A stretch of 64,000 nucleotides of DNA from Arcobacter sp. LA11. GTDB lineage: Bacteria; Campylobacterota; Campylobacteria; Campylobacterales; Arcobacteraceae. Each line of letters opens with the position of its first letter. Position 1 is the first letter of the stretch. Shown in pieces: positions 9,705 through 53,949 of the stretch. Below the pieces are notes generated by a model. It did not search any database, was not told the origin of the DNA, and saw nothing but the letters and a program-made list of their open reading frames with translations. A program made the position numbers and the translations under genes. Where the stretch lies: the NCBI RefSeq assembly GCF_001895145.1, contig NZ_BDIR01000002.1:124001-188000 (forward strand), given 5' to 3'.

Positions 9705-11357
9705 TTATTTAATTTGATCTTTTAATAAATCACCTAAAGTCATTGATGAATCATCATTAACAGCTTTTAGTACTTCTCTTTCTTGTTGTTGCTCTAATCT
9801 TTTTACAGATAATCTAACTCTATTTTTTCTAGTATCAATATTTACAACAACAGCTTCCAGCTCATCACCTGCATTAACTTCTTCATTTTCTAGTGGTCCA
9901 AAGTCTTCGTTTCTAATAAGTCCGTCTAAGTTATCTTCTAATTTAATGAAAATACCAAAGTCTTTTTTATCTTTAACAGCACCTTTTACAATATCACCAA
10001 TTTTATGAGTATTTTGGAAGTTTTTAGCTGGAGAGTCAGCAATTTCTTTAACTGATAATGAGATATTTTCTTTTTCTCTATCAATTTTGATAATCTTAAC
10101 TTCTACTTCGTCACCTTTTTTGTAAAGTGATTTACATTTAGCATTTGATTCCCAAGATGCTTCTTCGTTATGTAATAATCCATCAACTTCACCAATAGTA
10201 ACAAATGCACCAAAGTCAGTTAAAGTAGCAATTTTACCATTTACAACATCACCAACTTTAAATTCTTTAGTGAATTTAGCGAATGGTTTTTCTTGTAAGT
10301 TTTTTAAAGATACTCTTAATCTTTTTTGCTCAACATTTAATTCAATAACTTCAACATTAACTTCTTCACCTAATGTTAATAAATCTTTTGGATTTTTAAG
10401 GTTTTTATTCCATGAAATTTCAGAAATATGTAATAAACCTTCGATGTCATTCCCTAAGTCAACAAATGCACCATATGATTCAAAGTTAGAAACAGTAACA
10501 GTAATTGTATCACCAACTTCTAATTCGTCTTTGATTTCTTCCCAAGGGTTTGCAAGTGCAGCTTTGATTGATAATGATAAGTGTTGTTTTGCTTTATCGT
10601 AAGATAATACAACAACAGAAACTTCATCACCTTCATCATAGTAATTAGCTGGGTTAACTGGACCTTTGTAAGAGATTTCATTGTAGTTAACTAAACCATC
10701 AATTCCACCTAAATCAATAAACATACCATAAGAAGTAATTTTCTTAACAATTCCGTTTACTGGCTCATTTTTCTCTAAGATTTCATTTACTTTTGCATCT
10801 TTTTGTAATTTTGATTCTTCAATTAATTTTTTTCTAGATACAATAATTGAGTTTTGTGCAGCATTTACTTTTAAAACTTTTGCTTTAACTTTTTTCCCAA
10901 CTGCACCATGAGTTTTTAAGTAAGATTGAGCCATAGGCATGAAGTATTCTAACCCAGTTTCATCTTCAATAATAAATCCACCTCTGTTTTTAACAGAAAT
11001 GATTTTACCTTCGATTGTAACTTCTTCTACATCTTCACCGTGTTCTTTTACAAACGTGTCAAATTTCTCTTTTTGAAGAACTTTTTTATAAGAAATAGAT
11101 GGTCTTTCACCTTTATTTCCCATTAACATTACAGGGATTGTATCCCCATCTTTGAATTGTACTTCACCATTAATTGTAATTTCAGAAAGGTATAACTTTC
11201 CTTCAATTTTTTGACCAACGTCAACAAGTACACTATCACCAGTAATTTCTACAATTACACCATCAACTACAGAGTTGTTTTCAGCATTCTCAAAAGACTC
11301 ATTAAGCATTTGCTCAAAGTCAAAGTCTTCACCAATTTCAATATCTTCGATACCCAT
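9705..11357 (-). CDS. rpsA: 30S ribosomal protein S1
   Basis: S1 binds mRNA on the small subunit. The 550-residue protein is built of about six tandem S1/OB repeats, recognisable by repeated GxV-x(5)-GxFVxL-x-G-x-xGL segments such as VKKITSYGMFIDLGGIDGL, VSNFESYGAFVDLGNDIEGL and IATLTDFGAFVTIGEVDGL. The first two repeats are the more divergent ribosome-binding ones. AAGGAATAAA precedes ATG 11357 and a promoter of its own lies at about 11400, fitting its high expression within the longer pheS-serA run. Confidence 0.97.
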   Translation of the reverse strand: MGIEDIEIGEDFDFEQMLNESFENAENNSVVDGVIVEITGDSVLVDVGQKIEGKLYLSEITINGEVQFKDGDTIPVMLMGNKGERPSISYKKVLQKEKFDTFVKEHGEDVEEVTIEGKIISVKNRGGFIIEDETGLEYFMPMAQSYLKTHGAVGKKVKAKVLKVNAAQNSIIVSRKKLIEESKLQKDAKVNEILEKNEPVNGIVKKITSYGMFIDLGGIDGLVNYNEISYKGPVNPANYYDEGDEVSVVVLSYDKAKQHLSLSIKAALANPWEEIKDELEVGDTITVTVSNFESYGAFVDLGNDIEGLLHISEISWNKNLKNPKDLLTLGEEVNVEVIELNVEQKRLRVSLKNLQEKPFAKFTKEFKVGDVVNGKIATLTDFGAFVTIGEVDGLLHNEEASWESNAKCKSLYKKGDEVEVKIIKIDREKENISLSVKEIADSPAKNFQNTHKIGDIVKGAVKDKKDFGIFIKLEDNLDGLIRNEDFGPLENEEVNAGDELEAVVVNIDTRKNRVRLSVKRLEQQQEREVLKAVNDDSSMTLGDLLKDQIK

Positions 11358-11398
11358 TTTATTCCTTCGTATTAACCGTTTTTTATTAAATGGTGATG

Positions 11399-11404
11399 AT
11401 TATA
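11399..11404 (-). promoter_or_regulatory. -10 box of the rpsA promoter
   Basis: On the minus strand CGATATAATC contains a perfect TATAAT, about 42 bases before the rpsA ATG, in the 73-base gap after ispH. No clear -35 is visible, as usual in Campylobacterota. Confidence 0.65.
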
Positions 11405-11430
11405 TCGAAATTTTACTTAAATGTAATTTT

Positions 11431-12264
11431 TTAGTATTTTTCTATTTCATTTACTACTTGTTGAATTATCCAGTCAGGGGTCGAAGCTCCAGCAGTTATA
11501 CCACATAAAGTTTTGTTTTTGAACCATGAAGAATCAAGTTCAGAAGAGTTTTCAATTAAATAAGAATTTTTACAACTTTCTAAACAAATTGAATGAAGTT
11601 GTTTTGTATTTGAAGAGTTTTTACCTCCAATTACAACCATGATATCTACCTCTTTTGATAGTTCACGTGCTGCATCTTGATTTTCAAATGTTGCATCACA
11701 AATTGTATTAAATACTCTAACTTCTTTATTTTTTAGAATAAGATTATTTACTATTTCTAAGTAGACTTCTTTTTTCTTAGTTGTTTGTGCAATAGTAGCC
11801 ACTTTATCGTATTTAAAAGAGACTTTATCTAAATCTTTAGGTGTTAATACTACATGGACATCATCTTGGTTTTTACCATAAGATTTAACCCCTTTAACTT
11901 CAGGATGTTCTTCGTCACCAAAAATTACAATAGAGTAATCTTTTTCTGACATTTTTTTTACAATTTGTTGTGGTGTTGTTACAAATGGACAAGTAGCATT
12001 TATTACTTTTGCGTCTTTTTGTCTTAAGTTTTTTAAATCATCTTTAGGAATACCATGTGTTCTTATAATTACTGTATCATCAGGTTTTACGTCAGTTAAA
12101 TTATTATAGAGTCCAACATTATAATCATTTTTTAATCTATCAATTTCATTTTGGTTATGAATTAGAGGTCCCATTGTAGCAGAGTCTTGATATCCTTCTG
12201 CAATTTTAATTGCTCTTTTTACACCAAAACAAAAACCATAACTTGATGCTAATCTAACTTTCAT
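11431..12264 (-). CDS. ispH: 4-hydroxy-3-methylbut-2-enyl diphosphate reductase IspH
   Basis: The last MEP-pathway enzyme, an iron-sulfur protein making IPP and DMAPP. All three cluster cysteines are seen: SSYGFCFGVKRA (Cys12), NATCPFVTTPQQI, and FNTICDATFENQDA; the substrate His motifs are in IRTHGIPK and GDEEHPEV, and SSNTKQLHSI is the diphosphate-binding Ser/Asn loop. Length 277 matches the Campylobacter form. Its start is preceded by a 31-base hairpin-forming element that contains the Shine-Dalgarno and is shared with thrC. Confidence 0.97.
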   Translation of the reverse strand: MKVRLASSYGFCFGVKRAIKIAEGYQDSATMGPLIHNQNEIDRLKNDYNVGLYNNLTDVKPDDTVIIRTHGIPKDDLKNLRQKDAKVINATCPFVTTPQQIVKKMSEKDYSIVIFGDEEHPEVKGVKSYGKNQDDVHVVLTPKDLDKVSFKYDKVATIAQTTKKKEVYLEIVNNLILKNKEVRVFNTICDATFENQDAARELSKEVDIMVVIGGKNSSNTKQLHSICLESCKNSYLIENSSELDSSWFKNKTLCGITAGASTPDWIIQQVVNEIEKY

Positions 12265-12270
12265 ATATAA

Positions 12271-12301
12271 TCCTTAAAAATTGTCCCAATTTTTAAGGGA
12301 C
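12271..12301 (-). repeat. 31-bp leader element, copy 1 (before ispH)
   Basis: Read on the minus strand, a perfect 12-bp inverted repeat CCTTAAAAATTG / CAATTTTTAAGG with loop GGA (arms 12298-12287 and 12283-12272) places the Shine-Dalgarno AAGGA in the 3' arm, 6 bases before the ispH ATG. An alternative stem GTCCC / GGGAC (12301-12297 and 12287-12283) is followed by AATTTTT and would free the Shine-Dalgarno. The two folds exclude each other. A 30/31 identical copy stands before thrC at 30007-30037. Confidence 0.8.
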
Positions 12302-12327
12302 CTTTATTCTATACTTTCTTTAAAGAG

Positions 12328-12344
12328 AAGAACGAGTTGTTCTT
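12328..12344 (-). terminator. Weak hairpin at the aroA stop
   Basis: A 6-bp stem AAGAAC / GTTCTT with a 5-base loop begins at the aroA stop codon. It lacks a long T-run, so it is at best a partial terminator or an mRNA-end stabiliser between aroA and ispH. Confidence 0.35.
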
Positions 12345-13623
12345 AGTTTCTTAGCGAGTCTAATATTTCTTTAAAGTTTGGAAATGAAGTTAAAATACAA
12401 TCTACATCTTCTACTTCCATATCACAATTAAGACCAGCAACTGCAAAACTCATTGCAATTCTATGATCACCATGTGAGTTTATAATAGCTTTATTTAGTG
12501 TTCCACCTGTTATTTCATATCCATCTTTATATTCACTGTATGTAACACCACATTTTTTTAGGTTTGAAACTACAGCTTCAATTCTATCTGATTCTTTAAC
12601 TCTTAGTTCTTCAGCATTTTTTACAAGTGATTTACCATTTGCTAAAGACATTGCAATAGAAAGTGCTGGAAGTTCATCAATAAGCCAAGAGATATTATCT
12701 TCAACAGTTACACCATTTAATTCTTGGTGCTTTATTTCAATATCACCAATTGGTTCATATACATTTTCTTTTTCAATAAAATTAACTTCTGCACCCATTT
12801 TCTTTAAAACTTGATAAGCTTCAATTCTTGTTGGGTTTAAAGTAACATTTTTGATTACTACTCTTGAGTTAGGAGTGATTGCTGCTGCTACTGCAAAAAA
12901 GAATCCAGAGCTAGGATCAGTTGGAACTGTAATATTAAGTGGTTTAAGTGGTCCTGCTAAAGGGTGAATATTAATAAATCCATCTTTATCATTTTCTAGC
13001 TTTGCACCCATACCTTTTAACATTCTTTCAGTGTGGTCACGTGTAAGTTCATTTTCTTTATATTTTGAAACTCCATTAGCTCTAAGTGCAGCAAGTATCA
13101 TTGCTGATTTTACTTGTGCAGAATCTACAGGTGAGTGATAAGTAAATGGTTTTAACTCTTTAACTCCTCTGATAAATAAAGGAGCTTTATTACCATCTTC
13201 TCTTCCATCAATATTTGCACCAATACTTCTTAATGGATTAGCAACTCTTTTCATTGGTCGCTCTCTAAGATACTTATCACCAGTTACAGTAAAAGCACCA
13301 TCTACAGAAGCTAAAAGACCACAAAATAGTCTCATTCCTGTTCCTGAGTTACCACAATCTAAAATATCACTAGGTTCTGTTAATTTATTAGTTGGTGTAA
13401 TTGTTACAGATGAACCTTCTCTTTTAACTTTTGCACCAAGTTGTTCTACTATATTCAAAGAGTTTATAGTATCTTCTGCTGTTAGAAAGTTTTTTATATA
13501 TGAAGTTTCATTAGAAAAAAGTGAAAACATTGCACATCTATGAGATATTGATTTATCACTTGCAATTGAATTTATTTCAATATTAAACGCTTTATCTAGT
13601 CTTTTTATGTTAAAGTTGTCCAC
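12343..13623 (-). CDS. aroA: 3-phosphoshikimate 1-carboxyvinyltransferase (EPSP synthase)
   Basis: It joins shikimate-3-phosphate to PEP in the shikimate pathway. Conserved blocks are [15 protein letters not shown] near residue 22, [12 protein letters not shown] (about 91), [26 protein letters not shown], the loop [11 protein letters not shown], and [15 protein letters not shown] near the C-terminus. Length 426 is complete. It starts at GTG 13623 with AAAGGAAAAAA in front, 17 bases after pheT, and continues the pheS-pheT-aroA-ispH-rpsA order of Campylobacter. Confidence 0.97.
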
Positions 13624-45554: not shown

Positions 45555-46805
45555 ATGGATCAAGAATTAATAAATAATATAAAAGCTAGATTAGATAAAA
45601 AAAACAGTGTTTTAGAAATTAAAGATATCCAAACTATAACACAAGAACTTGATATTTATCATACTGAACTTATAACCCAAAATGAAGAACTATATTCAAC
45701 AAATCAAGAACTAAGTAAATTAAAAGAAGAGCTAAGAAGTATTTTTAACTATTCTCCTATCTGTTACTTTACTATTGATAAAGATTTTAAAATTATTGAC
45801 TCAAATTTATTAGCAAAAGAATATTTTGATATAAATAAGAGAATAAAAACTTTTTTTCATCTTGTTGAAAATTCAAGTAAAACTAATTTTTTAGATTGGA
45901 TAAATTTAAAAGAATTTTTAAAAAAAGATTTGGAAGTATTTTTAAAATGCGTAGATTCTGAATCAAAGAGATTTAGGTTAAAAGCAATTCCTTATCCAAG
46001 TAAGGGTGAAATATATTTCTTATCTATAATAGATATAGATGAAGAGTATAAATTTAAAGAAAATTTGAAACAAAAAGTAGAAGAAGAGGTTGCAAAAAAT
46101 ATTTTTAATCAAAAGATTCTTCAAGAGAAATCAAAACTTGCATCTATGGGAGAATTAATTGATATTATAGCCCATCAATGGGCATCTCCTTTAACAAATA
46201 TAAGAGTTCAAGCAGATTTATTAAAAAGAGATTATAAAAAAAACAGAGTTAATGGAGAGTATGTAGAAGATTACTCAGGGAAAATCAAAAATAATATTGA
46301 TCATTTAATTAGTACATTAAGAGAATTCAGAAACTTTTTAAGACCAAATGAAAATTTAGAAAGAGTGAATCTAATCAAGCTTGTTAGTAGTGTTAAAATT
46401 CTTTTAAAAGATACTTTAATTGCTAAAAGGGTTAGATTAAGTATGGATGTTGATGAATCAATTCATATTAATGTTTATATAAATGAACTAATAAACGTTT
46501 TTGTAAATCTTATTACAAATGCAATTGAAGCTCACCAAGAAAATCATACTAGAAATAGATATGTTAATATTTCTGCAACAGAAGAAAATAATTCTGTAAA
46601 AATTCATGTTAAAGATAATGCTGGTGGTATTTCTAAGCGAACTCTTAAAAAGATTTTTGAGAAGGAATTTACAACAAAAGAAGAAGGAACAGGAATAGGG
46701 CTTTATTTAGTTAAAGCAATTTTAGAAAAAATCAACTCTTCTATTGAAGCTAGAAGTAAAGAAAATGAAACAGAGTTTTTAATAACTATTAACACTGTTC
46801 AATAA
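45555..46805 (+). CDS. Soluble PAS-domain sensor histidine kinase
   Basis: A 416-residue kinase without membrane spans or signal peptide. N-terminal coiled coil (ITQNEELYSTNQELSKLKEEL, 40-60), one PAS domain (FNYSPICYFTIDKDFKIIDSN, about 65-170), a helical linker, and an HisKA H-box MGELIDIIAHQWASPLTNI with the phospho-His at about residue 207. ATPase boxes: N (LITNAIEAH), G1 (DNAGGIS) and G2 (GTGIGLYLVKAIL). The NEELYSTNQEL coil resembles the one in the CheB-CheR protein nearby. No response regulator is adjacent. It ends 2 bases from the convergent GGDEF-EAL gene; a part in the light module is possible but unproven. Confidence 0.9.
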   Translation: MDQELINNIKARLDKKNSVLEIKDIQTITQELDIYHTELITQNEELYSTNQELSKLKEELRSIFNYSPICYFTIDKDFKIIDSNLLAKEYFDINKRIKTFFHLVENSSKTNFLDWINLKEFLKKDLEVFLKCVDSESKRFRLKAIPYPSKGEIYFLSIIDIDEEYKFKENLKQKVEEEVAKNIFNQKILQEKSKLASMGELIDIIAHQWASPLTNIRVQADLLKRDYKKNRVNGEYVEDYSGKIKNNIDHLISTLREFRNFLRPNENLERVNLIKLVSSVKILLKDTLIAKRVRLSMDVDESIHINVYINELINVFVNLITNAIEAHQENHTRNRYVNISATEENNSVKIHVKDNAGGISKRTLKKIFEKEFTTKEEGTGIGLYLVKAILEKINSSIEARSKENETEFLITINTVQ

Positions 46806-46806
46806 G

Positions 46807-48981
46807 TTATTTTAGAAGAAATTTTTCTCTGATTTCTTCTACTTTTAAAGGTTTAGAAAAATAATACCCTTGAACATAGTCAGCCTCTATACTTTTTAAC
46901 CATTCAAAGCTTTTTTTAGTTTCAACACCTTCTATAACAACTTTACAGTTAATACCATGTGCCATATAAATCATAGACTTTACCATATTTCTTGCTTGTT
47001 GATCTTCATCTATTCTAAAGGTAAAAGATTTATCAATCTTAACTACATTTACTGGAAGATTGTGTAGTTGTGATAAAGAAGCATAGCCTGTACCAAAATC
47101 ATCTAGATATATTTTTGAACCAAGGTTACAAAGGTTATTGATTGTTGATTGAAGATTTTCAAGGTTTTCCATAGCACTTGTTTCTGTAATTTCAAAGTTA
47201 AAATTATTGATATCTAAATCATATTTTAGAGCAATATCATTGTATGATTCTATAAAAGTCTCTTTTATAAGTTGTAAAATTGATATATTTATAGCTATAG
47301 GAACTATTTTATAATTGTTTTTTATATTTTGACTATAAAACTTACAGATTTCTTCAAATATAATTTCTCCAAGTTCAGTTATTAAGCCTTCTGATTCTGC
47401 TATTGATATAATTTCTTCAGGATTGACAAAATTACCATTTTCATCTTCAATTCTTAATAGTGCTTCTAAAGAGTATAATGAGCTATCTTCAATATTTATA
47501 ATAGGTTGATAATATACTTCTAGTTTCCTTTTTAACGGGTTATTAATCGTTTTTAAAAGAATATTTTTGAAAGTGTCTTTTTCTTTTATGAATTTTTCAT
47601 CTTCTGGTCTAAATACAGATACTTGATTTCTTCCACTTTTCTTTGCTCTATACATAGCTGAATCTGCTCTACTCATTAATTCACCAATTTGTGTACCATG
47701 TAAAGGAGAAATAGCTATTCCAATAGATGCCCCAATTATATGTTCATTGTTATTAATAAAAAATGGTTTTCTAAGTTCCTTAACTAAAGAGTTTCCTATT
47801 TTAGATACAAATTCTTCACTTTGGATTCTTGAAAGTACAATAATAAATTCATCTCCTCCAACTCTTGCAACAATATCATTTGTTCTTACTGTTGCTAAGA
47901 TTCTTTGTGCAGCTTCTTGTAATAATAAGTCTCCTTCATGATGTCCATAAATATCGTTGATTTGTTTAAAATGGTCTAGATCTAGAAAAAGAATACCATT
48001 TTTACTATTTTTTTTCTCAGATTTTTCAAGTAAATTTGAAAGAGAAATTTGTAAAAAGTGTCTATTTACAAGACCTGTTAACGTATCATAATGAGCTAAT
48101 CTATCTAATTCTAATTGATGTTTTTTTCTTTCACTAATATCTGAAAAAATTGATGTGAAAAAAATTCTTTTTGTAACGGGTTCGATTACTCTATTTACTT
48201 GTAGCCATTCTGGAAAAACTTCGCCATTTTTTCTTTTATTCCATATCTCTCCTGACCACCATCCATGATGTTCAATGTCATACCAAATTTTTTTATAAAA
48301 ATCCATAGAGTGTCTACCTGATTTTAATAACCTTGGTGTTTGTCCTAAAGCTTCTGATGTTGAATATCCTGTTATTTCTGTAAAGGCATTATTTACTTTT
48401 AGAATCTCTGCTTTCTCATTTGTGATGATAACTCCATCTTTAAGTTGATCAATTACGATATGAGATAGATAGTTTGAATTTTGTGAATCACTTTCATCGT
48501 AAGGATGTATCACCCCAATAATAAGTCTACTTTGGTCTGTTTTTTTATCATGAAGTTTTTTTAGAGTTAAAGTAAATGAAGTTTTATTCTTCAATTGTAA
48601 AAAATAGAACATAATAGACTGTCGTTTTTCATCTTTTATAAAGTTCCTAAATTGTGTTGTATATTCACTAAATACAATTTGATCTAAAAAACTTCTAAAA
48701 GAACTTTCAAGGATTATATATTTTTTTTTAGATAAAAAGCTAAGTGCAGATTCATTTAGATTTTTTATTTTTCCAAATTGGTCTAATATAATTAAGATAT
48801 TTGGAGATTGTTCAAAAAAGAATCTATAATCTTTATACATTTGATTATCTAAATCAATAATATCATTTTCAAGAATTTCAATATTTTGTTTTTGATTATA
48901 AAGATCTCTTTGTAATTCAACTACAAGACGATTGAGATTAGATATTTGTTCTTGATAAGCTTTAATCTCAATATCATCCAT
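46807..48981 (-). CDS. PAS-PAS-GGDEF-EAL c-di-GMP protein (last gene of phytochrome operon)
   Basis: 724 residues, soluble. Coiled coil about 1-50, PAS 1 about 55-150 (FFEQSPNILIILDQFGKI), PAS 2 about 175-290 (LKDGVIITNEKAEILKVNNAF, SGEIWNKRKNGEVFPEW), GGDEF about 295-460 with GGDEF at about 373 and the RTND inhibitory site five residues before it, and EAL about 480-720 with EALLR at about 505 and DDFGTGYASLSQL. Both catalytic motifs look intact, so it may make and break c-di-GMP. It lies 14 bases after the CheB-CheR gene with AAAGGG before ATG 48981. The PAS domains may receive the signal from the upstream proteins. Confidence 0.93.
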   Translation of the reverse strand: MDDIEIKAYQEQISNLNRLVVELQRDLYNQKQNIEILENDIIDLDNQMYKDYRFFFEQSPNILIILDQFGKIKNLNESALSFLSKKKYIILESSFRSFLDQIVFSEYTTQFRNFIKDEKRQSIMFYFLQLKNKTSFTLTLKKLHDKKTDQSRLIIGVIHPYDESDSQNSNYLSHIVIDQLKDGVIITNEKAEILKVNNAFTEITGYSTSEALGQTPRLLKSGRHSMDFYKKIWYDIEHHGWWSGEIWNKRKNGEVFPEWLQVNRVIEPVTKRIFFTSIFSDISERKKHQLELDRLAHYDTLTGLVNRHFLQISLSNLLEKSEKKNSKNGILFLDLDHFKQINDIYGHHEGDLLLQEAAQRILATVRTNDIVARVGGDEFIIVLSRIQSEEFVSKIGNSLVKELRKPFFINNNEHIIGASIGIAISPLHGTQIGELMSRADSAMYRAKKSGRNQVSVFRPEDEKFIKEKDTFKNILLKTINNPLKRKLEVYYQPIINIEDSSLYSLEALLRIEDENGNFVNPEEIISIAESEGLITELGEIIFEEICKFYSQNIKNNYKIVPIAINISILQLIKETFIESYNDIALKYDLDINNFNFEITETSAMENLENLQSTINNLCNLGSKIYLDDFGTGYASLSQLHNLPVNVVKIDKSFTFRIDEDQQARNMVKSMIYMAHGINCKVVIEGVETKKSFEWLKSIEADYVQGYYFSKPLKVEEIREKFLLK

Positions 48982-48995
48982 GTGAGCCCTTTCTT

Positions 48996-51827
48996 TTAAG
49001 CAAATTTAAAAAATATAACTCTATCTGTATAGAGTTGGTCTGGACAATTCTCATATTTGAATCTTACAACTTTTTTCTCTTTTTCTTTAGTTACTATAGT
49101 AATACTACTCCAACCGTCACTATCAATTATATCATTTTTAAAAATAGTATTTTCTATTTGGTTATGAGTCATATTTAAAAAAAGTTCTTCGAAACTCATA
49201 TGCGTAAATTCTTCATTAGAATAACCAAAAAGTTCTTCTGCTAAAAAGTTTACATGAACAAATTCCATTGCTATATTAACACAAACCATAGGGTATTTTG
49301 TATACTTTCCAAGTACGTTCATAAAGTTTTCGTGTTGTTTATTAGATATTTCAGTTTTATTTTTTATTTTTTCAAAAAATAGAATAGCTCCAACAACTTC
49401 TCTATTATCAAATTTATAAGGAACAATTCTTAAATCGTGTTGCAAACTTTTGTTTCTTAAATTTATTATGCATTCTCTTTCCATTTCAATTACATTTATC
49501 AGTTCTGCTCTTAAATTTGGAATATCCATACTAAAGCTAAAAGATGTAATTACTTGTCCTATATCATCATGTAATAGTTCAAAAAGTTTACCTGCTTTAT
49601 TTGTATACCTTTGAAGTCTTAGGCGATTATCTACAAAAAGTATATTGTCATCTATTGAACTTAACATAGCTGTAAGATCGTTATTTACTTTTCCTAATTC
49701 AAATGATTTTACCTCTAACTCTTCATTTACTGTTGAAAGCTCTTCATTTGTAGATTGAAGTTCTTCATTTGCAGTTTGTAATTCTTCATTTGCAGATTGC
49801 ATCTCTTCATTCGCAGATTGCAATTCTTCATTTGTAGATTGTAATTCTTCGTTGCTTGTTTCTAAATCTTGAATAGAACTTTGTAGTCTTTCTCTAAAAA
49901 TCTCAATTTCTTGTTTTAATTTATCTTTACTTAAATCATCAATAGATTGATAATTAACAGGAAGAGAACTTTCATAAGATAATTGCAATTCAAAAAATGC
50001 AAGAACAAATAGCTCATCATTTATATCTGGATGGATTTTTTCTATAGCTATATAAAGCATTGTATTTTTATTTTTTGTTTCATGAAATAGAGCTTGTGAA
50101 CTTGCTCTTCCATCTCTTTTTGCCTGTTGTAAAAGGGATCTTATATCTATTTTTAAATCACCTTTTGCCATATTTAATATATTTAATTCTAATCTTCCTT
50201 CTGGAAATGTTAAATATGGATTTAAATTTCCATTTATATGAAGCATCTCTCCCATTGAATTTATAACAATTGAAGCTGGCATAAGTTTTTCGTTTATAAC
50301 TTGATTCATTTTATCTTTTAAAGATATGTCTTCATTTATTTTTACTTTGGATTGTAAACTTGAGATTTTTTGATTATGCACTAATTTTTTAGCACCTTTT
50401 GTATATTCTAAATTAAATGATAATTCGGTTTTTCTTCTTTTAAATAGTTGTGATTTTTTTGTTGAAACTTCAAAAAGTTCAGGTGAAGTATTTGAAGCTG
50501 ATTCTGATTTTCCTAAAAAAAGGAAACAATCTGGTTTTAGTGAATAATGAAATGTTTGAAATATCTTTTTTTGTGTTTCATTATTAAAATAGATTAAAAC
50601 ATTTCTACAACTAACTAAGTCAATATGTGAAAAAGGAGGATCAGTAATCATATTTTGTTTTGCAAATACAACATGATCTCGTAATGTTTTATTTATCATA
50701 TATGAACTTGCATCATTTTCTTGAAAATAGCGCTTTAATATATTTGGTTTAATCTCTTTTGTTTGAGAACTAGAATAAACAGCTTTTCTTCCTAAATTTA
50801 AAGCATAATCGTCAATATCTGTTGCAAAAATTTGAAAAGGAATTTGTTTATTTAATTTTCTATTTGCTTCTTCAAAAAGTATTGCCATAGAGTATGCTTC
50901 TGCTCCATTTGCACAACCTGCAACCCAAACTCTAATAGGTTCAGTATGGTCTCTTTTATCAATCATATTATCAACAATAACTTTTAAATCATCAAAAGCT
51001 TCTTTATCTCTAAAAAAGTCAGTTACTGAAATAAGAAGGTCTTTAAAAAGTGCTTCTACTTCATTTGAAGAGTTTGATAAGAGTTCAACATAGTCATCCA
51101 AGGTAACAAACTTATTTACAACCATTCTTCTTTGTATTCTTCTTTGTATAGTTTTTAGTTTGTAACCACTAAAGTCATATGAAGTTTGATCAAAAATTGC
51201 TTGAAAGATTTTTTCCAAATTTGTTCTAACTTTTGGTTCTGTAACTCTTTTAATATTCTCTTTACTTGAATATATAAGTTTAGGTAATTCGCTAGCTATT
51301 TCTTTTGGTGATAGTACTAAATCTACAAACCCAGTATCCATTGCAGACCTTGGCATACCAGAATACTTTGCACTTTGATTATCTTGTGCTATTGTTATTC
51401 CTCCTGCAGCTTTTATTGCACTTATTCCAACTGCACCATCACTACCTGTTCCTGATAAGATAATACCAATACAGAACTCTTTTATTTCATCTGCCATAGA
51501 ACAAAAAAGGTCATTTACCGATGGTTTAGGTCCAATTATTGCTGCTGGAGATAAAATAATATGTTCTTTCTCAATTGTTGCATTATGCCCTGGAGCTATA
51601 ATATATATTGAACCTTTTTCAGGTTTTATATCTTCTTCAACCATATATATTGGGAAAGATGTAACTTTTTCTAATAGTTCTTTTAGAATTGTAGGATGTG
51701 AAGGGTCAAGATGTTGAGCTATTATATAAATACTATCTTCAAACTCTAAGTGTTTTAAAAAATCTTTTATTGCATCAAGTCCACCTGCAGAAGCACCAAT
51801 ACCGATCCAAAACTTATTCTTCCCCAT
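48996..51827 (-). CDS. CheB-CheR fusion with coiled coil and two PAS domains
   Basis: 943 residues, soluble. CheB methylesterase about 1-190 with the whole catalytic triad: Ser13 (GASAGG), His39 (IAQHLDPSH), Asp130 (SGTGSDGA). CheR about 215-480: TIQRRIQRRM, TDFFRDKEAF, SCRNVLIYF are conserved, but the SAM loop reads GCANGAEAYS instead of the usual GC[AS]TGEEAYS. Then a heptad coiled coil at about 640-715 made of NEELQST-type repeats, a PAS (about 720-820) and a second PAS (about 840-943). Unlike many CheBR hybrids it has no kinase domain. The ATG overlaps the phytochrome stop by one base (TAATG), AAGGAAAAATA before it. Confidence 0.93.
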   Translation of the reverse strand: MGKNKFWIGIGASAGGLDAIKDFLKHLEFEDSIYIIAQHLDPSHPTILKELLEKVTSFPIYMVEEDIKPEKGSIYIIAPGHNATIEKEHIILSPAAIIGPKPSVNDLFCSMADEIKEFCIGIILSGTGSDGAVGISAIKAAGGITIAQDNQSAKYSGMPRSAMDTGFVDLVLSPKEIASELPKLIYSSKENIKRVTEPKVRTNLEKIFQAIFDQTSYDFSGYKLKTIQRRIQRRMVVNKFVTLDDYVELLSNSSNEVEALFKDLLISVTDFFRDKEAFDDLKVIVDNMIDKRDHTEPIRVWVAGCANGAEAYSMAILFEEANRKLNKQIPFQIFATDIDDYALNLGRKAVYSSSQTKEIKPNILKRYFQENDASSYMINKTLRDHVVFAKQNMITDPPFSHIDLVSCRNVLIYFNNETQKKIFQTFHYSLKPDCFLFLGKSESASNTSPELFEVSTKKSQLFKRRKTELSFNLEYTKGAKKLVHNQKISSLQSKVKINEDISLKDKMNQVINEKLMPASIVINSMGEMLHINGNLNPYLTFPEGRLELNILNMAKGDLKIDIRSLLQQAKRDGRASSQALFHETKNKNTMLYIAIEKIHPDINDELFVLAFFELQLSYESSLPVNYQSIDDLSKDKLKQEIEIFRERLQSSIQDLETSNEELQSTNEELQSANEEMQSANEELQTANEELQSTNEELSTVNEELEVKSFELGKVNNDLTAMLSSIDDNILFVDNRLRLQRYTNKAGKLFELLHDDIGQVITSFSFSMDIPNLRAELINVIEMERECIINLRNKSLQHDLRIVPYKFDNREVVGAILFFEKIKNKTEISNKQHENFMNVLGKYTKYPMVCVNIAMEFVHVNFLAEELFGYSNEEFTHMSFEELFLNMTHNQIENTIFKNDIIDSDGWSSITIVTKEKEKKVVRFKYENCPDQLYTDRVIFFKFA
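49711..49855 (-). repeat. Seven 21-bp coding repeats (NEELQ heptads)
   Basis: Within the CheB-CheR gene, the 21-base unit encoding NEELQSx recurs in register about seven times (variants NEEMQ, NEELS, NEELE). It encodes a continuous coiled coil. Imperfect codon identity between copies argues for an old repeat, though length change by slippage remains possible. Confidence 0.85.
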
Positions 51828-53311
51828 TATTTTTCCTTAACTAAATATCTAAAAAAAGTATTAGCAAATTTTAAACCTGCCGAAATTTCTAATGTAGTAA
51901 ATTTTTTACTAAACCCTCTTTTTATCTCAATAAATTCTTCAAAAGATCTTCTAGGTGAAAGTTGTAATGCTCCAGCATTTTCAATTACAGGTTTATTTGG
52001 ATTCCCCGCCCAGTGTAATTCTTCGATAAATTCATTTCTAAACCAATAAGATCTAACATCATGGTTATTAATTCTTAGTTTTATTCCTAATACTCCTGCT
52101 GGACCTAAATAATGATTATCTTCAAACAATTCATTTGAAATAGAATTACTAACTAAACTTATTTCAGTATTACTCATAAAAGTATTGTCTAGATATATAA
52201 ATGAATTATTATCAGGTAAGTTTCCAAAACTTGTTATATGGTTATCTATAACTAGAATGAAACCATCACTTGAAATTAAATTTAAAAATCTATTTTGATT
52301 TTTCATTATTTCATCTTCTATTAAACCTTTGTTGATAATTAAATCTGCAATATCATTTACTTTATGTTCAATTAAATCAATATAGTTTAGTTTCTCTTTT
52401 GCTAAATAGTTTTGAATACCTAAAGAAAAAAGCTTTGTTTCTTCAATAGCTGCATTTTTAGTAATAGGATCAAGAAGTTTCTTTTTAAAATTGTGACATG
52501 CTAAAAGTCCCCAAAGTTTATTAGAAATTATTATAGGTATTGAAAATGAAGATTCAACTCCCATATTTTTCAAATATTCTATATGGACAGGTGAAACACT
52601 TCTTGTATCAGAATATGTAAGATCTGGAATATTTTTTGGTAGAGCAATAATATCTACATTTTTTGCTTTTGTATCTGCTATTATTCTAGAGGGATTTAGT
52701 ACATATAACTCCCTTGCAATTTTTGGTATATCTGAAGCTGGAAATCTAAGATCTAAATAACTTCCATATGAGTTTGACAAAATTTTTTCTGCAACAACTT
52801 TTCCACTCCAATCATCTTGAAATTGGTATAGCATGATTCTATCAAAATTAATTGTTTCTGAAACCATTTGCATATATGTTTGCAAATAGTCTTTATAACT
52901 TTCTTCTGAATCTGGGGTAATATAAAGTTCATTCATATCTCTATTTAAAACTTTTTCTTTTGCTTTTTGTGAAATTTTTTGGATATCTACTATAAAGTTG
53001 TCATCTGTTTTTGAAATTTTAAGATATATATTTTCATCTTTGATTTTTTGATAAACATATGGATGGTCTAATTTTTCATCTAAAAGTTTAAAATAGTTCA
53101 TCCAGTTAGGTAGTAAAGTTTCAATTCTTTTACCTAAAAGTTCATCAACACTAAAGTTTATAAATTCATTAATATTTTCTGCTACATGGGTGATTATAAG
53201 ATTGTTTTCGTTTATAACAATAATAGAACCAAAAGGTTGAATCATTCCTGAAAGATGTAATTGTTCTTGTTCGCAGGTTTGTAATAGTTTATCAAGTTCT
53301 TTATTGTTCAT
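51827..53311 (-). CDS. bphP: Bacteriophytochrome photosensory core without output domain (PAS-GAF-PHY)
   Basis: 494 residues: PAS about 15-125, GAF about 140-320, PHY about 330-494. Biliverdin-type features: Cys13 in QTCEQEQLHLSGMIQPFG (bilin-linking Cys of bacteriophytochromes), DRIMLYQFQDDWSGKVVAE, PASDIP with its Asp at about 194, SVSPVHIEYLKNMGV (His about 243), GLLACHNF (His about 273), PHY tongue HWAGNPNKP and SPRRSFEEF (about 453). The protein stops a few turns into the signalling helix, so no kinase or cyclase is attached. A heme oxygenase lies 9 bases upstream and a CheB-CheR protein starts on its stop codon. AGGATATAAAA precedes the ATG. Confidence 0.95.
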   Translation of the reverse strand: MNNKELDKLLQTCEQEQLHLSGMIQPFGSIIVINENNLIITHVAENINEFINFSVDELLGKRIETLLPNWMNYFKLLDEKLDHPYVYQKIKDENIYLKISKTDDNFIVDIQKISQKAKEKVLNRDMNELYITPDSEESYKDYLQTYMQMVSETINFDRIMLYQFQDDWSGKVVAEKILSNSYGSYLDLRFPASDIPKIARELYVLNPSRIIADTKAKNVDIIALPKNIPDLTYSDTRSVSPVHIEYLKNMGVESSFSIPIIISNKLWGLLACHNFKKKLLDPITKNAAIEETKLFSLGIQNYLAKEKLNYIDLIEHKVNDIADLIINKGLIEDEIMKNQNRFLNLISSDGFILVIDNHITSFGNLPDNNSFIYLDNTFMSNTEISLVSNSISNELFEDNHYLGPAGVLGIKLRINNHDVRSYWFRNEFIEELHWAGNPNKPVIENAGALQLSPRRSFEEFIEIKRGFSKKFTTLEISAGLKFANTFFRYLVKEK

Positions 53312-53320
53312 TTTTATATC

Positions 53321-53893
53321 CTATGAGTCTATATGTTTTTTTAAAGCAATGAAAACTTCACTTGCTCCTAATGTCGCCTCATATTCATTTATATTTGTAT
53401 TATCAAGCCAATTTGAATAACTCATCCACATAGGCATGGTATTTTCATTGTAACTTTTATAATATCTTAAAGGAATATCTTTATCAAAATTTGTAGTCAT
53501 GATTTTTACTATTTGTAATCCACCCATAGTAGAACCCTCAAGTACATATAGTGCCCCTGCTATTGAATCAAGATTGTTAAGTGTATTAAATTCTAATTTT
53601 TCATTATTTGTATCTAATGAAATATCGAAAGATTTTAAATCTTCTTCAAGCCATAATTGTTTCTCTAGTCGCTCTTTTATATCTAATAAACCATTTTCTT
53701 GAAATTGTTTTTCAAAAGATTTTATTTTTGGTTCAAGTATTTTTATAAATTGATATAATTTTATTAATAAAAAAATATATCGTTCTTTAGTTAAATTATT
53801 ATCTTTAATTTCATTAAAAATTGTTGAAAACTCAAGCCAGTCATGTAGAGGCTTAGTAGTATTTTTTAAATGACTTTTTAATCCTATTTTCAT
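53321..53893 (-). CDS. bphO: Heme oxygenase (BphO-like), biliverdin supplier
   Basis: A 190-residue heme oxygenase that opens heme to biliverdin, CO and iron. Proximal His17 in TKPLHDWLEFS and the distal helix YVLEGSTMGGLQIVKIM (about 117-133) with its Gly pair are clear. These are the marks of phytochrome-associated BphO enzymes. It is the first gene of the operon, 9 bases before the phytochrome, which makes biliverdin supply its likely job; iron recovery from heme is the alternative. Only a weak Shine-Dalgarno (AAGAG) precedes the ATG. Confidence 0.94.
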   Translation of the reverse strand: MKIGLKSHLKNTTKPLHDWLEFSTIFNEIKDNNLTKERYIFLLIKLYQFIKILEPKIKSFEKQFQENGLLDIKERLEKQLWLEEDLKSFDISLDTNNEKLEFNTLNNLDSIAGALYVLEGSTMGGLQIVKIMTTNFDKDIPLRYYKSYNENTMPMWMSYSNWLDNTNINEYEATLGASEVFIALKKHIDS

Positions 53894-53923
53894 ATATTAC
53901 TCTTATTATTTAAATTTTATTTT

Positions 53924-53949
53924 TGTATCAAGATTGTATCAAGATTATA
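53924..53949 (-). promoter_or_regulatory. Promoter region of the phytochrome operon with 11-bp tandem repeat
   Basis: On the plus strand TGTATCAAGAT occurs twice in perfect tandem (53924-53934 and 53935-53945). On the minus strand this gives three -10-like hexamers at 11-bp steps: TATAAT (53949-53944), TACAAT (53938-53933) and TACAAA. The leader to the bphO ATG would be about 33-44 bases. One-turn spacing is what a regulator binding in tandem or alternative start points would need. Confidence 0.6.

Follow-up and report, generated by a model that had tools for sequence, protein, structure and literature searches.

The phytochrome operon of Arcobacter sp. LA11 consists of four tandem genes, all on the minus strand, with a gap of 9 nt, a 1-nt overlap (TAATG) and a gap of 14 nt between them. 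This close packing, described in the original prediction, was confirmed. The stop codons of the GGDEF-EAL gene and of a neighboring plus-strand PAS histidine kinase gene lie 1 nt apart. The features found in the window, the whole 64,000-nucleotide stretch that was analyzed, are these:

53914..53942, minus strand: candidate operon promoter, TTGATA-17-TAAAAT; matches of this kind are overall not above chance
53321..53893, minus strand: heme oxygenase (BphO type), 190 aa; PF01126 at 4e-10, above the cut-off
51827..53311, minus strand: output-less phytochrome, 494 aa, PAS-GAF-PHY and a single C-terminal helix; from Pfam, PDB relatives, the model and its fold match, and the output-less clade
48996..51827, minus strand: CheB-CheR-coiled coil-PAS-PAS protein, 943 aa; from Pfam, motifs and model
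49656..49925, minus strand: long helical segment encoded by CheB-CheR codons 635-724, holding five EExx[AST][AST] repeats; from the model and a shuffle count
46807..48981, minus strand: coil-PAS-PAS-GGDEF-EAL protein, 724 aa; from Pfam and motifs
45555..46805, plus strand: PAS histidine kinase, 416 aa, adjacent, convergent and not assigned to the module; from the open reading frame and Pfam

Promoter and terminator scans of the operon gave no signal above chance. The GC content of the operon genes is 25-28%, that of the window 28%, and base composition shows no sign of a recent transfer of the operon. The heme oxygenase has the expected proximal-His pattern, TTKPLHDWLE.

Pfam assigns PAS_2-GAF-PHY to the 494-aa phytochrome and nothing further, the PHY domain ending at residue 489. 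Alignment with other phytochromes showed Cys13, PASDIP (191-196), His243, His273, WAGNP and PRRSF (453-457). The N-terminal bilin Cys, the PASDIP motif, the two GAF His and the PRxSF tongue are those of a bacteriophytochrome. The AlphaFold model (mean pLDDT 82) has a PAS-GAF-PHY fold that terminates in one helix, residues 473-493. It matches DrBphP with TM scores of 0.84-0.85 (0.85 for crystal structure 4q0j) and also the photosensory modules of Agp1 and PadC, the latter being the top structural match. By Pfam, neither a GGDEF or GGDEF-EAL on the chain nor a PAS9 domain 3' of PHY is present. Alignment, Pfam and model thus bear out the earlier description of a phytochrome with the bilin Cys, PASDIP, GAF His pair and PRxSF tongue and with no kinase or cyclase. 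With biliverdin supplied by the heme oxygenase, the protein would be expected to bind bilin and to photoconvert.

A frameshift that had cut off an attached output, the outcome that the original prediction had set against itself, was looked for downstream of the phytochrome stop. No coding remnant of a decayed output was found there; the other frames are stop-rich except for the CheB frame itself, and the relatives in the phytochrome's clade end at nearly the same position. Loss of the output by frameshift was therefore rejected.

The 943-aa protein is CheB-CheR_N-CheR-PAS_10 by Pfam. Sequence gives weak evidence of a second C-terminal PAS, which the model shows at low confidence. The active-site motifs of both enzymes, CheB and CheR, are intact (GASAGG, QHL, GTGSDG, GCANGAEAYS and SCRN) and are followed by a coil and PAS, the composition of a CheB-CheR-PAS hybrid. 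The coil, between CheR and PAS, was modeled as a single 90-residue helix (635-724). EExx[AST][AST] heptads occur in it five times, where shuffling its residues gave 0.5 on average, a comparison that ignores heptad periodicity. These repeats resemble the methylation sites of chemoreceptors and are a family-wide feature, present in the window and in most relatives checked. Because the shuffle ignores periodicity and the motif is family-wide, self-methylation of the coil is put forward only as a hypothesis. The 724-aa protein is PAS-GGDEF-EAL by Pfam, with RVGGDEF, the RxxD I-site, EALLR, DDFGTG and EGVE intact. Judged from these residues both its GGDEF and EAL motifs look active, so that the c-di-GMP response could go in either direction.

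Phytochromes are rare around LA11. They were found in just 5 of the 104 Arcobacteraceae genomes searched and in 0 of 15 relatives of the same genus, and a phylum-wide draw of 397 Campylobacterota genomes added one. The other Campylobacterota phytochromes found have their output fused, as HD-GYP plus a degenerate GGDEF, as PAS-GGDEF or as PAS-kinase-receivers. Those of the HD-GYP-degenerate GGDEF type form a clade of their own (L011:8835-11375, L012:8419-10965, L014:3601-6120 and L016:8119-10728), with a heme oxygenase beside three of the four and a small histidine kinase beside three of the four. A genome of another genus of the family (G071, L028:1-3286) has a phytochrome truncated by the contig end to its N-terminus, with a CheB-CheR hybrid gene oriented divergently from it. 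The family has many CheB-CheR-PAS genes. Phytochrome-free pairs of CheB-CheR-PAS and PAS-GGDEF-EAL genes also occur in Arcobacteraceae (L152:5595-11165, L153, L177 and L178), and the proteins of those pairs therefore have other inputs. The LA11 layout itself was seen in none of the other genomes among about 500 Campylobacterota searched.

Relatives of the operon were found in the Pseudomonadota. The single phytochrome sequence gave no matches to genome contigs and an alignment was needed as the query. With it, the closest GTDB phytochromes, at best 37% identical, proved to be likewise output-less, and many adjoin a CheB-CheR protein. A profile made from close relatives was run on draws of 369 Gammaproteobacteria and 349 genomes of one betaproteobacterial order, and on further draws of 289 Alphaproteobacteria and 245 genomes of one gammaproteobacterial order. 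The matches fall into two groups, one with scores above 500 bits and open reading frames 493-581 aa long, the other mostly below 390 bits with frames above 640 aa; low-scoring matches below 640 aa include fragments and G1695 (315 bits), an output-less but divergent member. The output-less clade has the signatures EQLHLSG, FPASDIPxIAR and PDLTxSDLR, the last of which deviates in LA11.

A CheB-CheR and GGDEF-EAL neighbor is present in 21 of the 29 clade members with visible flanks, a count from which relatedness by descent is not removed. Of 56 output-bearing phytochromes from the same collection search, two have a CheB-CheR neighbor (Fisher p 2e-11, with members that are phylogenetically non-independent). 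The partner also adjoins the phytochrome in 9 of 10 newly drawn, non-centre genomes. In most relatives CheB-CheR-PAS-PAS-PAS-GGDEF-EAL is a single protein of 1,330-1,530 aa, and some have split genes. The phytochrome stands on either side of the fused gene and a heme oxygenase usually adjoins, so that in most relatives these three genes make up the entire operon. The LA11 operon has the same composition: CheB-CheR-PAS and PAS-GGDEF-EAL, which may be fused or split, and a heme oxygenase, next to a phytochrome of the output-less clade. Contig ends truncate the neighborhoods of five more clade members; in two of these the end of a GGDEF-EAL gene stands directly at the break, and in one further genome a fused CheB-CheR/GGDEF-EAL gene runs into the contig end. 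The expectation that the synteny would be found beyond LA11 thus failed within the Campylobacterota, where it is unique among the genomes searched, and held in alpha-, beta- and gammaproteobacteria. The original framing as a Campylobacterota light pathway gives way to a widespread pseudomonadotal module of which LA11 is the only campylobacterotal example found.

Variants of the module were also seen. A chemoreceptor gene lies near the module of other relatives; in two gammaproteobacteria such genes are in the module cluster (L179:4571-7965; L180:2596-4341 and 11036-12661; 4HB-HAMP-MCP and PAS3-MCP). A Dechloromonas MAG (L076:3626-13978) has a phytochrome fused to PAS-GGDEF-EAL together with a CheB-CheR hybrid, a heme oxygenase and a further signaling-type protein. 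Both variants, the one with chemoreceptors in the cluster and the one with the fusion, speak for the proposed module. Eight clade members with visible flanks are without the partner: six Chromatiaceae, Magnetospirillum molischianum and one gammaproteobacterial MAG, which has a split CheB-CheR/GGDEF-EAL pair elsewhere in its genome. At the Chromatiaceae and M. molischianum loci (L057, L065, L066, L070, L074, L080 and L098) the phytochrome has neither a CheB-CheR nor a heme oxygenase neighbor. The phytochrome can therefore function or persist without the neighbor.

In a 56-row phytochrome tree the output-less members form one side of a branch with 100/100 support, and all 31 sampled members of that side, from alpha-, beta- and gammaproteobacteria, are output-less. 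The LA11 phytochrome lies inside a 22-row set with support 98/97. The HD-GYP phytochromes of Campylobacterota fall on the opposite side of the 100/100 branch; inheritance from other Campylobacterota phytochromes was rejected, theirs being a separate clade. Because the LA11 protein is nested in the output-less clade and the HD-GYP types are on the other side, a transfer from Pseudomonadota probably brought it in, and its composition has since come to match the host's.

The partners have a more complex history. The CheB-CheR parts of the fused proteins form one clade that branches largely like the phytochromes, and their GGDEF-EAL parts likewise form one clade. The Rhodoferax CheB-CheR is clearly foreign to this clade (AU p 1e-112), and that of G1695 groups with Rhodoferax. 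G623 retains the CheB-CheR of the clade and has a separate, PAS-rich GGDEF-EAL gene. With more rows the LA11 CheB-CheR joins the Arcobacteraceae hybrids (96/91); with fewer rows the AU test did not reject the alternative placement (p 0.18). The LA11 GGDEF-EAL is placed, on a long branch, outside the fused-protein clade (AU p 0.024), and its best same-family matches include proteins of G062 and G063 encoded directly 3' of CheB-CheR hybrids in phytochrome-free operons. These placements disfavor the view that the LA11 partners arose simply by splitting of the fused protein. Since the partners in Rhodoferax, G1695, G623 and, probably, LA11 are split or foreign and yet the set is kept, the trees suggest that the set was put together anew from parts of different origin, with gene order shuffled, in at least two lineages and probably three or four. 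Such reassembly, with the set retained, argues more strongly for a functional partnership than would a conserved block by itself. The idea that output was moved to separate proteins, with light presumably passed by contact to the CheB-CheR or the GGDEF-EAL protein, is supported by the neighborhood conserved across phyla, by this exchange of partners with the set kept, and by the fusion of the partner genes.

The LA11 operon is thus likely to be one version of a conserved two-part light-signaling module with a contact-driven CheB-CheR/PAS/GGDEF-EAL output. In the proposed mechanism the heme oxygenase makes biliverdin, which a dimer of the stand-alone phytochrome would bind at Cys13, allowing it to interconvert its red and far-red forms. 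The phytochrome would act in trans through the PHY tongue or the C-terminal helix, either of which might touch the coil/PAS region of the partner. The receiver would be one protein in most relatives and two proteins in LA11; the fused protein is the likeliest receiver because it is the only other signaling protein in most relatives' operons. Contact would alter c-di-GMP turnover in one direction or the other, and the CheB and CheR domains may adjust methyl-glutamates of chemoreceptors or of the coil in the partner itself. More tentatively, the system might be a self-adapting light-to-c-di-GMP switch, the stand-alone phytochrome driving a partner whose MCP-like coil is methylated and demethylated by the partner itself, an array-free memory and gain control; or the partner might directly edit co-encoded chemoreceptors, a link from light to taxis.

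The occurrence of the enzyme pair without phytochrome in Arcobacteraceae, and of the phytochrome without the enzyme pair in Chromatiaceae, would fit a different arrangement. Here CheB-CheR-PAS/GGDEF-EAL would regulate c-di-GMP adaptively and on its own, the phytochrome would only tune its expression or store or sink bilin, and the two would share light regulation without contact. This is unlikely, as without a direct partner it is difficult to account for the repeated recruitment of unrelated partners beside one phytochrome clade and for the clade-wide, coupled loss of the fused output. It is also improbable that the phytochrome signals through the PAS histidine kinase, or another kinase in trans, with the partners merely co-transcribed. 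The end of that kinase gene does abut the operon's last stop, and in some other Campylobacterota small kinases lie upstream of bphO-bphP; the LA11 kinase gene is however convergent, hence not co-transcribed, and the clade relatives retain CheB-CheR/GGDEF-EAL, and no kinase, beside the phytochrome. A chance or recent rearrangement that left an orphan phytochrome beside unrelated signaling genes would suit a layout confined to LA11 among the Campylobacterota searched and a family where CheB-CheR-PAS genes are frequent, but it is scarcely credible given the tight packing with a 1-nt overlap and the association shared by three proteobacterial classes (21/29 against 2/56), a survey that already contradicts chance.

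Contact-driven output in two parts would depart from the normal view of bacterial phytochromes as one-chain sensor-effector switches. BphG and PadC, like LA11, combine a phytochrome input with c-di-GMP enzymes, the presumed output in LA11; theirs is covalently fused and has no CheB-CheR, whereas that of LA11 is separate. XccBphP reportedly has a non-enzymatic PAS9 end and acts by protein contact. RpBphP1 acts by protein contact on a separate partner, the repressor PpsR2 (PMC6899989). As proposed for LA11, both hand the light signal to a separate partner, but both retain an output domain, a non-enzymatic PAS9 (or PAS-HOS), whereas nothing follows PHY in LA11 and the partner is enzymatic. Ppr of Rhodocista (Rhodospirillum) centenum, a PYP-phytochrome-kinase that binds CheW (PMC2993699), likewise ties a phytochrome-type receptor to chemotaxis proteins. 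Unlike the contact proposed for LA11, its contact is made through the kinase domain and with CheW rather than CheB-CheR, and it has no c-di-GMP partner. R. centenum also has a CheBR hybrid, RC1_3878, noted without a function (PMC2890560). Such CheB-CheR-coil-PAS hybrids have CheB and CheR on one chain like the 943-aa protein; the RC1_3878 report describes the hybrid only, with no light input or c-di-GMP partner. Other Campylobacterota phytochromes (BphO and PAS-GAF-PHY-HD-GYP-degenerate GGDEF) resemble LA11 in having a heme oxygenase and a red-light input apparently aimed at c-di-GMP, and differ in their fused output and distant phytochrome clade.

A literature search found no described Campylobacterota light pathway of this layout, as had been supposed. 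Nor did the literature searched, mostly outside the subscription journals, yield a description of an output-less phytochrome joined to CheB-CheR and GGDEF-EAL. The parts are familiar; the conserved two-part system appears to be undescribed. If the proposed module is real, an effector-less phytochrome clade would show photosensor signaling across a protein interface, receptor methylation and c-di-GMP would be joined under one input, and a natural two-part red-light optogenetic tool would be at hand. It would also give the abundant and functionally obscure CheB-CheR-PAS hybrids their first testable input.
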